Source: Alphaproteobacteria bacterium (GTDB lineage Bacteria; Pseudomonadota; Alphaproteobacteria; SMXQ01). From it: a stretch of DNA of 36,128 nucleotides. Below, piece after piece: positions 5,981-10,096 of this stretch. The notes beneath the pieces are model-generated. The model did not search any database. It was not told the DNA's origin and saw only the letters and a program-made list of their open reading frames with translations. How positions within the stretch are numbered: the first letter of the stretch is position 1; every line of letters starts with the position of its first letter. Both the position numbers and the translations under genes were made by a program. The stretch is from the NCBI GenBank assembly GCA_004356985.1, contig SMXQ01000069.1, forward strand, positions 1 through 36,128. Reading direction: 5' to 3'.

Positions 5981-6161
5981 CTTCATGGAATAAATTTTGC
6001 CGTCTGCCGCAGGGCTTTGGGCCTGCCGATTTCCCTCGGCCACCCGTTGGCCGCGACATTTGGGCCCGGGCTGGCGGCGACAAGGCTAGAATGACCTTGT
6101 TCAGCGGGCCGGTGGCGCCTTAGTGGCCCAGGACCGGGGTTCGCGTGGCGGGAGGTCGATC

Positions 6162-6920
6162 ATGGAAGCAAAACCGGTAACCGCGGGGTTGGTGGTCATC
6201 GGCAACGAGATCCTTTCGGGCCGGACGCGGGACGCCAACACCCAGTTCATCGGGGCCGAACTCAACGATCTCGGTATCCGTCTGGCAGAGGTTCGCGTTG
6301 TCGCCGATGTTTGCGGGGCCATCGTCGGTGCCGTCGAGGCGTTGCGGAAGGAATACGATTACGTCTTCGTGACCGGCGGGCTGGGGCCCACCCACGACGA
6401 CATCACCGCCCGGAGTATCGCCAAGGCATTCGCCGTGGAGCTGGTTTGCGACCCCGAGGCCCATGCGCGCCTGGAACGCCATTACGGGAGCGAGCGGTTC
6501 AATGCGGCGCGCCAGCGCATGGCCTATATACCGGAGGGCGCCGCGCTGATCGACAACCCGGTCAGTGCGGCGCCGGGATTTCGGATCGAAAACGTCTTCG
6601 TCATGGCGGGGATTCCCCGCATCATGCAGGCCATGTTCGCGAGTGTCCGGCACCGGCTGTCAGGCGGCGCGCCGCTGCTGTCGCGGACCATCGGCACGGA
6701 TCTTGGTGAAGGGACCCTGGCCGCGGAACTCGGCCGCGTCCAGGAAGCGTTCCCCGACATTCAGATCGGCAGTTATCCGTCCATGGGGTCCGGCCGGTCG
6801 GGCGTGCGAATCGTGCTACGTTCGGTCTCCGAAGACCGGCTCGGGGCCGCGGTGGAGGCGGTGCGCGCCATGGCGGCGCGGCTCGGCGGGCAGGCCGAAG
6901 AACTCGACATCACCGGCTAG
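6162..6920 (+). CDS. CinA-type molybdopterin-binding domain protein
   Basis: This 252-residue protein has the MoaB/MogA-like domain of the CinA family (competence/damage-inducible protein A N-terminal half). Motifs include VVIGNEILSGRTRDANTQF at the start, FVTGGLGPTHDDIT in the middle and VMAGIPRIMQAMF later. In family members this fold binds molybdopterin or acts on pyridine nucleotides (ADP-ribose pyrophosphatase); the C-terminal NMN deamidase half of full CinA is absent, as in many alphaproteobacteria. I chose ATG 6162 because GGGAGG lies just before it; an in-frame GTG at 6123 is less likely. It is transcribed away from the AT-rich island. Confidence 0.88.
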   Translation: MEAKPVTAGLVVIGNEILSGRTRDANTQFIGAELNDLGIRLAEVRVVADVCGAIVGAVEALRKEYDYVFVTGGLGPTHDDITARSIAKAFAVELVCDPEAHARLERHYGSERFNAARQRMAYIPEGAALIDNPVSAAPGFRIENVFVMAGIPRIMQAMFASVRHRLSGGAPLLSRTIGTDLGEGTLAAELGRVQEAFPDIQIGSYPSMGSGRSGVRIVLRSVSEDRLGAAVEAVRAMAARLGGQAEELDITG

Positions 6921-7060: not shown

Positions 7061-7720
7061 TCATGGCTGGAGGTAGCGCCGGTGCTCGATAATGGTGCCG
7101 ATGATGCGGCCCGGATGATCGGCATCCATGTGCAGTATCGGCCAGTCGTCGTTGAGCGGCACCAGATCGATGATCGGACGGCCGGCGCTATCGGTGCCCC
7201 GCGGCCGGAATTTCTTGAACGTCGCCTCCTCCTCGCCATCGAGCTTGGCCACCACCAGGGCCCCGGGCTGGGGTGCGACGTCCGGGTCGATGATGATTTT
7301 GTCGTTTTCCTGGAAATCGGGAGCCATGGAATTGCCCTTGATCACCAGGCCGAAGGTATTGGCCCCGACGGTCTGTTCGGTGACCAGGCGGTCCATGCCG
7401 CGGCCTGGTGGATAGGGGTCGGCCACCGCGTTCCAGTCTCCCGCCTGCACGAAATCGATGACCGGAACCGTTTTGCCGCGGGGTCGATAGGGAACCGCCT
7501 CTTGTTCCTGGCCGGTATATTCGCCTTCGCCGGTGATCCAGGATACCCAGACCCCCAAGGCGTCGGCCGCGTCGCCCAAGTGATCGAGGCTGGGCCGCGT
7601 GGTGCCGAGTTCCCACTGCGCGACGGCGGCCCGGCTCACCCCGCAATGGTCGGCCAGCATCTGCTGGGTCATGTTCGCCCGTTGCCGGGCGTCGCGAATG
7701 CGGAGGCCGATACCGATCAT
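7061..7720 (-). CDS. XRE-family phage-type repressor with S24 self-cleaving domain
   Basis: This 219-residue protein has an N-terminal helix-turn-helix (residues 1-60, with LRIRDARQRANMTQQMLADH and GVSRAAVAQWELGTTRPSL) and a C-terminal S24/LexA-like peptidase domain. The likely Ala93-Gly94 cleavage site (DFVQAGDW), the nucleophile Ser131 in KGNSMAPDF and a lysine in the ATFKKF stretch near 169 are all visible, so RecA-stimulated self-cleavage is plausible. It resembles CI/C2-like prophage repressors more than LexA, whose DNA-binding domain is a winged helix. It is divergent from the DUF6362 gene, with palindromic operator candidates between them, which suggests repression of its own and its neighbour's promoters. 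Confidence 0.9.
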   Translation of the reverse strand: MIGIGLRIRDARQRANMTQQMLADHCGVSRAAVAQWELGTTRPSLDHLGDAADALGVWVSWITGEGEYTGQEQEAVPYRPRGKTVPVIDFVQAGDWNAVADPYPPGRGMDRLVTEQTVGANTFGLVIKGNSMAPDFQENDKIIIDPDVAPQPGALVVAKLDGEEEATFKKFRPRGTDSAGRPIIDLVPLNDDWPILHMDADHPGRIIGTIIEHRRYLQP

Positions 7721-7742
7721 AACGCCGCCATTATGAAAGACT

Positions 7743-7811
7743 TACTAACATTTGTCATGGAAATTTTGCGGGTAACCCCGGGTTACTATTGACAGAGCAG
7801 TTAGTATAACT
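7743..7811. promoter_or_regulatory. Divergent promoter-operator region for the S24 repressor and DUF6362 gene
   Basis: A perfect palindrome GTAACCC-C-GGGTTAC occupies 7772-7786. It abuts a consensus -35 hexamer TTGACA at 7789-7794 reading towards the DUF6362 gene. A second inverted repeat, AGTTA-GTA-TAACT, is at 7799-7811. The heptamer GTTAGTA occurs at 7800-7806 and, inverted, at 7743-7749. The spacing of the -10 element is unclear; TACTTT at 7812-7817 is a weak candidate. Arrays of such half-sites are usual for CI-like repressors, so the neighbouring S24 protein is the obvious candidate binder. Confidence 0.55.
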
Positions 7812-7856
7812 TACTTTTAGGGGCACCATCAGCGACCGACAAACGGAGGGAAATTC

Positions 7857-8450
7857 ATGTCACGACGTTATTCCGGCGGCGCCGGGCCGGGCAAAGGTGA
7901 GATAATGGGTGCCCCCGTACCGCTTCGGGGCGCGCGCAACGGAATGCGCGCCGAGATTCCCCCCGGCGGCGGCAAGCGCGGCGCAGGCCTGGCATGTCCC
8001 CTTTGGGACCGGGCCGCGGTGAAGACCCGGCTGGAGGAAGCCGCGGAGACCCTGAGGGCGATGACCCTGAACTGCCGCGACAGGCCCGCGCGGGTTGCTT
8101 CGGGCTGGCCTGATGTGGTGCGCCAAAGCTGCGAGGCTTATGGCTATAGCGAGGTTCGTGTGCGACCGCCGGCGCCGCCGCCGGCCCGTATCAGCCGCGC
8201 CGACGAAGCGGTAACCTGGCTCCTCTGGCTGACCGATGCCGAGCGCCGCGTGTCCTGGGCCCGGGCGTCGGGCATCACCTGGCGGCGGCTCGAGGATATC
8301 GATGGCCGCTCCCACGTCACCCTCCGCAAAATCCAGTTCTCGGCATTGGAATGTATTTGCAAGCATCTCAATGCCGCCGGCAGGGGACAAGACGTGGCGG
8401 CGGCGCGGACGCGGGCGCGACCGGATAACCCATGGCCGACCAGGCTATAA
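7857..8450 (+). CDS. DUF6362 family protein (phage-associated)
   Basis: This 197-residue protein matches the DUF6362 pattern: RLEEAAETLRAM near residue 60, then SGWPDVVRQSCEAYGY, ISRADEAVTWLLWL and RRVSWARASGITWRRLE in the last third. The end resembles a helix-turn-helix, and family members occur in alphaproteobacterial phages and gene-transfer-like elements. The exact role is unknown; DNA binding is inferred from the C-terminal helices. The first 55 residues are Gly/Arg/Pro-rich and unrelated to the family. The ATG follows a strong GGAGGG ribosome site by seven bases. It is divergent from the phage-type repressor and ends just before an orphan tRNA 3' end. Confidence 0.78.
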   Translation: MSRRYSGGAGPGKGEIMGAPVPLRGARNGMRAEIPPGGGKRGAGLACPLWDRAAVKTRLEEAAETLRAMTLNCRDRPARVASGWPDVVRQSCEAYGYSEVRVRPPAPPPARISRADEAVTWLLWLTDAERRVSWARASGITWRRLEDIDGRSHVTLRKIQFSALECICKHLNAAGRGQDVAAARTRARPDNPWPTRL

Positions 8451-8455
8451 ATAAT

Positions 8456-8508
8456 CCTTGACTCCCTTGGCTTCGGCCTTGCAGGTTCGAATCCTGCCGC
8501 CCGCACCA
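8456..8508 (+). tRNA. Partial tRNA 3' end (probable attachment-site remnant)
   Basis: A perfect T-arm (GCAGG stem 8481-8485, loop TTCGAAT, CCTGC 8493-8497) is followed by an acceptor 3' strand CGCCCGC, discriminator A and an encoded CCA ending at 8508. Before it, GGCTTCGGCC looks like the long variable arm of a class II tRNA (leucine type likely). No D-arm or anticodon arm of normal form precedes it, so this is not a complete gene. Such 3' tRNA pieces are left at the far end of elements that integrate into tRNA genes. By the usual geometry the element would lie to the left, where the phage-type genes are. The left limit of the remnant is approximate. Confidence 0.68.
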
Positions 8509-8555
8509 TGAGGCAAAAAATCAAGGTAAATCCTATTGGGATAAGAGGAAGAAAC

Positions 8556-9368
8556 ATGGCGGAAGATAACAATATCAATGTCGAGGATATCGTGTGCGCG
8601 GACAGTATGCCGGCCTACCTGGCCAAGCCTATGGGCGGAGAGCCGCGGGCCTGTATCGTTCTCATGCATGAACGCTACGGCCTTGTGGATCATACCAAGG
8701 ATCTGGCCCGCCGCTTCGCTCGCGACGGCTATGTCTGCATCGCACCGGATTTCTTTTTCCGCCACCCGGACCAGGACGCGCTCCATCGCGGTGACGAAAG
8801 GTGCGATATTACCGACGGTGCCGCCGTCCGCGACCTATCCGCGGCCATCGATGCGCTCGCCGAAGTGGACGGCGCCGATCCCGCCCGTTGTGCCGTGATG
8901 GGCGTTTGCCAGACGGGCCGCCACCCCTTGGTGCTGGCCGCGGAACGGTCAATATCCGCGGCGTTGGTTTGGTACGGGGCCGCCTCGAAGCGGGAATGGG
9001 AGGTCAACGACCGCCAACCCCGGCTCTTGGAAGATGTCATCGCCGATGTGAATTGCCCGGTTTTCGGCTCATTCGGCGAGGCGGATCACCTCATCTCCCT
9101 CGATGATGTGCGGCGGTTCCGCAACTGCCTGGAAGAGAAACAGAAATCGTACTCCATCAAGATTTTCGGCGGTGCGCCCCATGGATGGCTCAACGATACC
9201 ATGCCGGGGCGCTATCGTCGGGAACAGGCGGAAGCCGCATGGGCCGCGCAATTGGAATTCCTCGATTGGCTATTCGATCCCGGGAGAGACCCGGCGCGGA
9301 TCGAATGGAATTTCGCCTGCGTGACCACATCGGATTACAATTTCTCCAAGAACGTCCGCTTGGAGTAA
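8556..9368 (+). CDS. Dienelactone hydrolase family protein
   Basis: This 270-residue alpha/beta hydrolase is a member of the dienelactone hydrolase family, which opens lactone rings in aromatic degradation; the actual substrate here is unknown. Motifs are ACIVLMHERYGL (oxyanion region), the nucleophile elbow GVCQTGRH with cysteine, the acid GEADHL and the catalytic histidine GAPHGWLND. The elbow is atypical because the family usually has G-x-C-x-G-G. I chose ATG 8556 since AGAGGAAG precedes it; the upstream in-frame ATG at 8508 overlaps the tRNA CCA and is probably not used. It is followed by the SRAP gene after 35 bases. Confidence 0.85.
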   Translation: MAEDNNINVEDIVCADSMPAYLAKPMGGEPRACIVLMHERYGLVDHTKDLARRFARDGYVCIAPDFFFRHPDQDALHRGDERCDITDGAAVRDLSAAIDALAEVDGADPARCAVMGVCQTGRHPLVLAAERSISAALVWYGAASKREWEVNDRQPRLLEDVIADVNCPVFGSFGEADHLISLDDVRRFRNCLEEKQKSYSIKIFGGAPHGWLNDTMPGRYRREQAEAAWAAQLEFLDWLFDPGRDPARIEWNFACVTTSDYNFSKNVRLE

Positions 9369-9403
9369 GTTGACCCGATCACACGTTGCGCGGGAGCCTG
9401 GCC

Positions 9404-10096
9404 ATGTGCGGGCGCTATGCGATCACGTCGCCCCTCGAAGCGATCATAGAAGCCTTCGCCGTGAAGGGAGCGCGCCCCAACCTGCAACCACGCTACAATG
9501 CCGCGCCGAGCCAGGATCTGCCGGTCGTTCGCGCTGGGCGCGAAGGGCGGGAACTGATCCTGATGCGTTGGGGGCTGGTGCCGTCATGGTCCAAGGGGCC
9601 CGATTCACGTTATTCCATGATCAATGCGCGGGCCGAAACCGTGGCCAGCAAACCTGCCTACCGGGGACCGTTTCGCCAAAGACGCTGCCTGGTTCCGGCA
9701 AACGGTTTTTACGAGTGGAAAAAAACCGCCGACGGCAAGCAGCCCTATTTCATTGCCTTGGCGACGGGTGAACCCTTTGCGTTCGCCGGGCTCTGGGATC
9801 ACTGGACGGGTCCCGAGGGCGAAGCGATCACCTCCTTCACCATCATCGTCACTGCCGCCAATGACTGTGTCCGTCCGATCCATGACCGCATGCCCGTCAT
9901 GCTGGGGCCGGACGATCATGAATCGTGGCTCGGCGAACGTGGCGCGCCGTCGCGGACCAAGCTTGCCATCATGCTGCGTCCCTACCCGGCGGAACTCATG
10001 CGGGCCTATCCGGTGGGCCGCGATGTGAACAGCCCGGCGAATGATGGCCCCGGCCTGTTGGAACAAGTCGGCGCAGGCCAGTCGGGGTTTCTATGA
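9404..10096 (+). CDS. SOS response-associated peptidase (SRAP/HMCES/YedK family)
   Basis: This 230-residue protein starts MCGRYAITSP, so after methionine removal Cys2 becomes the N-terminal residue that forms a thiazolidine crosslink with abasic sites in single-stranded DNA. The other active-site residues are visible: Asn74 in MINARAET, Glu104 in GFYEWKK and His160 in IHDRMPV. It protects abasic sites at forks in the nucleoid. The ATG at 9404 is required by the Cys2 rule; the upstream in-frame codon at 9386 would place extra residues in front. It is downstream of the hydrolase on the same strand. No SOS box was seen immediately before it. Confidence 0.95.
   Translation: MCGRYAITSPLEAIIEAFAVKGARPNLQPRYNAAPSQDLPVVRAGREGRELILMRWGLVPSWSKGPDSRYSMINARAETVASKPAYRGPFRQRRCLVPANGFYEWKKTADGKQPYFIALATGEPFAFAGLWDHWTGPEGEAITSFTIIVTAANDCVRPIHDRMPVMLGPDDHESWLGERGAPSRTKLAIMLRPYPAELMRAYPVGRDVNSPANDGPGLLEQVGAGQSGFL

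Follow-up and report, generated by a model that had tools for sequence, protein, structure and literature searches.

The window analysed here (the whole stretch of DNA, 36,128 nucleotides) carries what is probably the residue of an ancient temperate phage or phage-like element that lay between a CinA-like gene and the tRNA-Leu(UAA)/DLH region, and that has been eroded to a two-gene switch consisting of an S24 repressor and a DUF6362 gene; a deletion would have removed most of the remainder and left half of the tRNA gene behind. The repressor is notable mainly for its long retention, and the remnant is otherwise an ordinary kind of fossil. The window is one complete contig (C151) of a draft genome (G000; 2.69 Mb, 90% complete) that was searched both by pattern and by family, and all of the genomes compared are draft metagenome assemblies. 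G001, G002 and G003 belong to the same genus as G000, and G003 is a sister species. The features of the locus, in window coordinates, are:

6123..6920, + strand: molybdopterin-binding/CinA-like gene; left chromosomal flank of the remnant
7061..7720, − strand: S24 (LexA/cI-type) phage repressor, 219 amino acids; HTH N-terminus, AG cleavage site, Ser131/Lys169 dyad
7730..7758, − strand: putative repressor promoter; −35 ATGACA, 17-bp spacer with operator half GTTAGTAA, −10 CATAAT
7772..7786, no strand: putative operator, perfect 15-bp palindrome GTAACCCCGGGTTAC, between the two promoters
7789..7817, + strand: putative DUF6362 promoter; TTGACA, 17-bp spacer with GTTAGTATAACT, −10 TACTTT
7800..7814, no strand: putative operator GTTAGTATAACTTAC, overlapping the DUF6362 promoter
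7857..8450, + strand: DUF6362 protein (PHROG 6836); HTH domain models like sigma-70 region 4
8451..8462, no strand: 12-nt junction ATAATCCTTGAC from the DUF6362 stop codon to the tRNA half; left side of the presumed deletion scar
8463..8508, + strand: 3′ half of tRNA-Leu(UAA); nt 39 (anticodon stem 3′ strand), variable arm, T arm, acceptor 3′ strand, CCA
8556..9368, + strand: DLH (dienelactone hydrolase family) gene; right chromosomal flank of the remnant

The repressor, the DUF6362 gene and the promoters between them

The first-pass annotation described the leftward gene as an S24 repressor with intact cleavage residues, and this is borne out by its domain matches (Pfam HTH_3, 1.1e-13, and Peptidase_S24, 6.5e-17; PHROG 4 "transcriptional repressor", 4.6e-41) and by the presence of the cleavage site A93-G94, S131 (in GNSM) and K169 (in ATFKK), all of which are invariant across the nine family genomes that have the gene. 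It shares with the S24 phage repressors (lambda cI/LexA-like; PHROG 4) the HTH and S24 domains, the AG site, the Ser/Lys dyad and a divergent promoter with operators, but unlike the usual members of that class it is a near-core gene of a whole family, vertically inherited, with its phage mostly gone. Almost all family members with the gene carry it next to CinA or the same SfsA-Map-RadC-PurB block, and the order in sister genera is PurB-RadC-Map-SfsA-EAL-CinA-S24, some of them lacking parts; the departures are G006, in which no CinA was found, and G005, with a short contig that stops before the block. Pairwise S24 distances track those of SfsA, Map and CinA (Mantel r 0.96, 0.87 and 0.93, respectively), which shows an old gene inherited vertically, and its ratio of amino-acid to fourfold-site divergence between G000 and G003 (0.57) is comparable to those of CinA (0.47) and SfsA (0.54), so that, by these sequence measures, it is held under constraint much as its core-gene neighbours are. 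The gene was not found in G001 and G002, so the repressor is not universal even within the genus.

These same properties would suit a domesticated host switch, in which the S24-DUF6362 pair is no longer a phage relic but responds to damage and regulates promoters at other chromosomal sites: S24 is intact in most of the family with its catalytic residues unchanged, its divergence ratio is like those of CinA and SfsA, and the putative operators are conserved. Domestication is nonetheless unlikely in our judgement, since DUF6362 has been lost in G003, G004, G008 and G009, S24 was not found in two genomes of the genus, and the S24 start is disrupted in G003 and apparently in G008.

The repressor faces the phage-associated gene across two putative operators, the 15-bp palindrome and GTTAGTATAACTTAC, much as the first-pass annotation had it, and operator-like motifs in this divergent region are conserved between genera. 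The spacers (16–18 bp) of both promoters hold a GTTAGTA/GTAAGT-type motif in several genera, and the count of 8-mers common to several genera in the region lies above that of all 500 shuffles. The layout of the putative repressor promoter, which has the repressor start codon about 10 nt downstream of it, is matched in G005, G006, G007 and G010; that of the putative DUF6362 promoter recurs in G007 and G010 (18-bp spacer) and in G005 (16-bp spacer). A strict promoter scan of the region reported the repressor promoter as its sole site, which is about the chance expectation, so conservation across genera is the actual argument for the promoters. The palindrome itself was not found in relatives.

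The product of the rightward gene matches DUF6362 (Pfam 9.6e-24; PHROG 6836, 3.9e-27), a domain that in phages is found immediately before terminase and that precedes the terminase large subunit (TerL) gene in viral contigs. No match was obtained by tblastn in sequenced phages, though viral contigs carry DUF6362, and a literature search found no papers on it. Its relatives are the DUF6362/PHROG 6836 proteins of alphaproteobacterial phages, with which it shares the domain and, in related genomes and viral contigs, the terminase neighbour; the window gene differs in having no packaging gene after it and in an N-terminal extension of about 45 residues without homologues. In a structure modelled from 32 sequences the confident part is a helical domain like sigma-70 region 4 (5fgm, TM by target 0.78, E-value 1.1); PDB hits for the DUF6362 fold have poor E-values (best 0.27), and the model also has sigma-like viral structural neighbours. 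Phages place late transcription regulators, which are sigma-4-like (e.g. the RinA/ArpU type), before their terminase genes, and these are likewise small HTH proteins, the likeness to DUF6362 being one of position and model. DUF6362 may have activated the late genes, with the repressor keeping it silent. The locus places DUF6362 among the late genes of a phage and hints that the family acts as an activator of the sigma-region-4-like kind. In G005 a small phage ORF (RLTWPERELVRQLG motif; L100 4267–4587) lies between S24 and DUF6362; it matches 52 of 64 DUF6362 viral contigs (loci L281–L339) and is just upstream of DUF6362 in those inspected.

Phage genes at the same place in sister genera

Outside the window, phage packaging and structural genes occupy this locus in G005, G006, G007 and G010. 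TerL directly follows DUF6362 in G010 and G005 (69% identical), a 125-residue terminase stump follows it in G007, and in G006 a TerS-like gene follows it at one contig end; at the end of another G006 contig tail genes adjoin an intact tRNA-Leu(UAA) and then DLH, a contig break separating TerS from these tail genes. The terminase after DUF6362 matches the PHROG terminase large subunit (6e-45), and the relatives' TerL proteins are 44–52% identical to TerL of sequenced phages. The survival of terminase and tail genes at the same chromosomal position supports the original description of the window's pair as the remnant of an element, and it argues that the pair formed the left end of a prophage that is ancient and has been eroded. 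Neither an integrase nor att repeats were seen in the relatives' annotated flanks or short tRNA matches (in G006 with a contig gap), so the case for phage integration is made from gene content. A gene transfer agent was also considered and rejected: there are no RcGTA-type genes, G010 TerL has no match in G000, and the relatives' TerL belongs to another PHROG.

It would appear, then, that the ancestor of this alphaproteobacterial family carried a temperate phage, or an element resembling one, with the CinA-like gene on one side and tRNA-Leu(UAA)/DLH on the other. Judging from the relatives, the repressor would have been transcribed leftwards, with DUF6362, terminase and the late genes running rightwards up to the tRNA, and these late genes would have been lost to a differing extent in each lineage. 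While the phage was active, the repressor probably silenced DUF6362 until it cleaved itself under RecA stimulation, and DUF6362, being sigma-region-4-like, probably switched on the packaging operon. The window would retain this switch, with S24 and DUF6362 on opposed promoters and operators in the spacers to which binding is predicted from sequence. The deletion in G000 would have extended from 12 nt past DUF6362 to tRNA nt 38, taking the late genes and the tRNA 5′ half, and would have left the native 3′ half as a scar and the repressor retained under constraint. The element is ancient and is decaying in place; it is no recent arrival. Such a remnant would date from before the radiation of this uncultured family, with stepwise decay visible at one locus and the repressor outlasting the other phage genes.

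Two observations concern the flanking genes. In G010 (L095 12587–15737) the stretch from terminase to DLH holds genes for a RES-domain protein and an AAA ATPase, which may be toxin or defence cargo. In the window an SRAP (HMCES/YedK-type) gene (9386–10096) is immediately 3′ of DLH, and this DLH-SRAP pairing is kept in G006 and G007.

The tRNA half and its boundary

The orphan tRNA 3′ end with CCA noticed in the first pass is real, but homology starts at position 8463 and not at 8456; its probable assignment to leucine was correct, as the half matches intact tRNA-Leu(UAA) genes in G007, G010 and G006 at 87–89% (G006, 87%, E 6e-7), and the 46 nt at 8463–8508 match G003 at 45/46 (96%). Homology begins at nt 39, the first base past the anticodon loop, and loop nt 32–38 are absent. 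No 5′ half was found in the window, as had been stated, and neither ARAGORN nor Rfam gave a complete tRNA. In G006 the intact tRNA-Leu(UAA) stands directly before DLH, oriented as it is in the window, so the window holds the native gene, still in its original place but reduced to its 3′ half. The fragment was first taken for the right-end att site of an element that used a tRNA gene, but the genes to its left belong to the family core and do not form an island with a second tRNA at its end. Half a tRNA next to phage genes does not have to mark an att site. Two spurious ORFs (window 8445–8786 and 8144–8578, both on the − strand) read the tRNA antisense (AGGRIRTCKAEAKG), and such ORFs are a usual source of false gene calls.

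Genomic islands in tRNA genes (Islander type, anticodon subsite) resemble the window in having a 3′ tRNA fragment with CCA that starts beside the anticodon loop. The window differs from them in that there is no intact tRNA opposite, no integrase and no island. No intact tRNA-Leu(UAA) in the window or in G000 brackets an element, no integrase lies between the CinA-like gene and the tRNA half, and the fragment stops short of the crossover site, whereas an anticodon-type crossover is expected to leave the anticodon loop. The earlier remark that the window holds neither integrase nor second tRNA copy stands, and G000 as a whole has no second copy. An exact search for the tRNA 3′ end in genome contigs and viral contigs found nothing. 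No identical end exists elsewhere in G000, and the locus is conserved at the family level; these last two results speak against an att site.

Deletions at this locus tend to end at the repressor start and, in the genus of G000, at tRNA nt 39. In G003 the loss is larger: DUF6362 is gone, and the repressor breaks off at codon 5, where it meets that same tRNA base. G004 and G008 keep the repressor but not DUF6362, and the junction is at about codon 3–4. The repressor frame in G003 (C153; L093 671–1358) now runs into the tRNA half antisense and begins MVPSF...AGGRTRTCKAEAKG. At the codon 3–4 junctions (L274 and L097 in G004; L098 in G008; 437–1085) G008 has about 650 bp extra relative to G004, and two G004 contigs overlap there by exactly 127 bp.

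Simple random deletion does not explain the nt-39 endpoint shared by G000 and G003. An earlier insertion at nt 39 would explain it, but the loop is missing from the fragment, and neither an integrase nor an element was detected. In the fullest version of this idea, a separate integrative element used tRNA-Leu(UAA) as attB by a crossover in the anticodon loop, the 3′ half at 8463–8508 is the native fragment that was displaced, the restored tRNA went with the element, and deletions fixed at the right end of the element later eliminated it. Two sister species do have the same fragment start with different left neighbours, as if the boundary pre-existed; islands formed by anticodon-centred crossover, with 3′ fragments, are the type met most often (PMC4383910); and an intact tRNA-Leu(UAA) is present in 0/4 genomes of the genus versus 7/7 of the sister genera. 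Yet no element DNA has come to light, a loop crossover should leave part of the loop but homology stops right after it, what lies to the left of the fragment is family core or the older phage, the 3′ half is in no viral contig, and the absence of the intact tRNA from the genus means little (below). We regard such an integration as improbable, about on a par with domestication, and prefer a deletion that ran from the eroded prophage into the native tRNA gene.

tRNA-Leu(UAA) in the genus and the reality of the junction

Neither an intact tRNA-Leu(UAA) nor its 5′ half was found in the four draft genomes of the genus. The genes for tRNA-Ser(UGA), Ala(UGC) and Ile(GAU), which are also needed, are likewise missing from all four, so the absence is due at least partly to the draft state of the assemblies and does not show that the gene was lost. 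Loss of UUA decoding was rejected on the same ground and because TTA is used (25/8962 codons in the window). A split or permuted tRNA gene was rejected because there is no 5′ half in G000 or G003 (both incomplete genomes), and a group I intron in tRNA-Leu(UAA) because G000 and G003 do not share the sequence that precedes nt 39.

That the DUF6362/tRNA-half junction is a false join made in assembly seems quite unlikely. These are metagenome assemblies, in G003 that tRNA base is joined to other sequence, and the G004 assembly graph branches at the S24 start, but no repeat across the junction is long enough to mislead an assembler, the order and orientation of both flanks agree with the relatives, and two separate assemblies carry the tRNA half. 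It is very improbable that the sole working tRNA-Leu(UAA) of the genus resides on a mobile element lost in binning, with the identical nt-39 scars of the two species marking where excision or deletion recurred at the anticodon-loop edge; if that were true, UUA decoding would depend on that element. Elsewhere in G000, identical tRNA-Sec genes are found at the ends of two contigs (L028, C19:46–140; L029, C28:20622–20716), and these are probably a single locus split by assembly.
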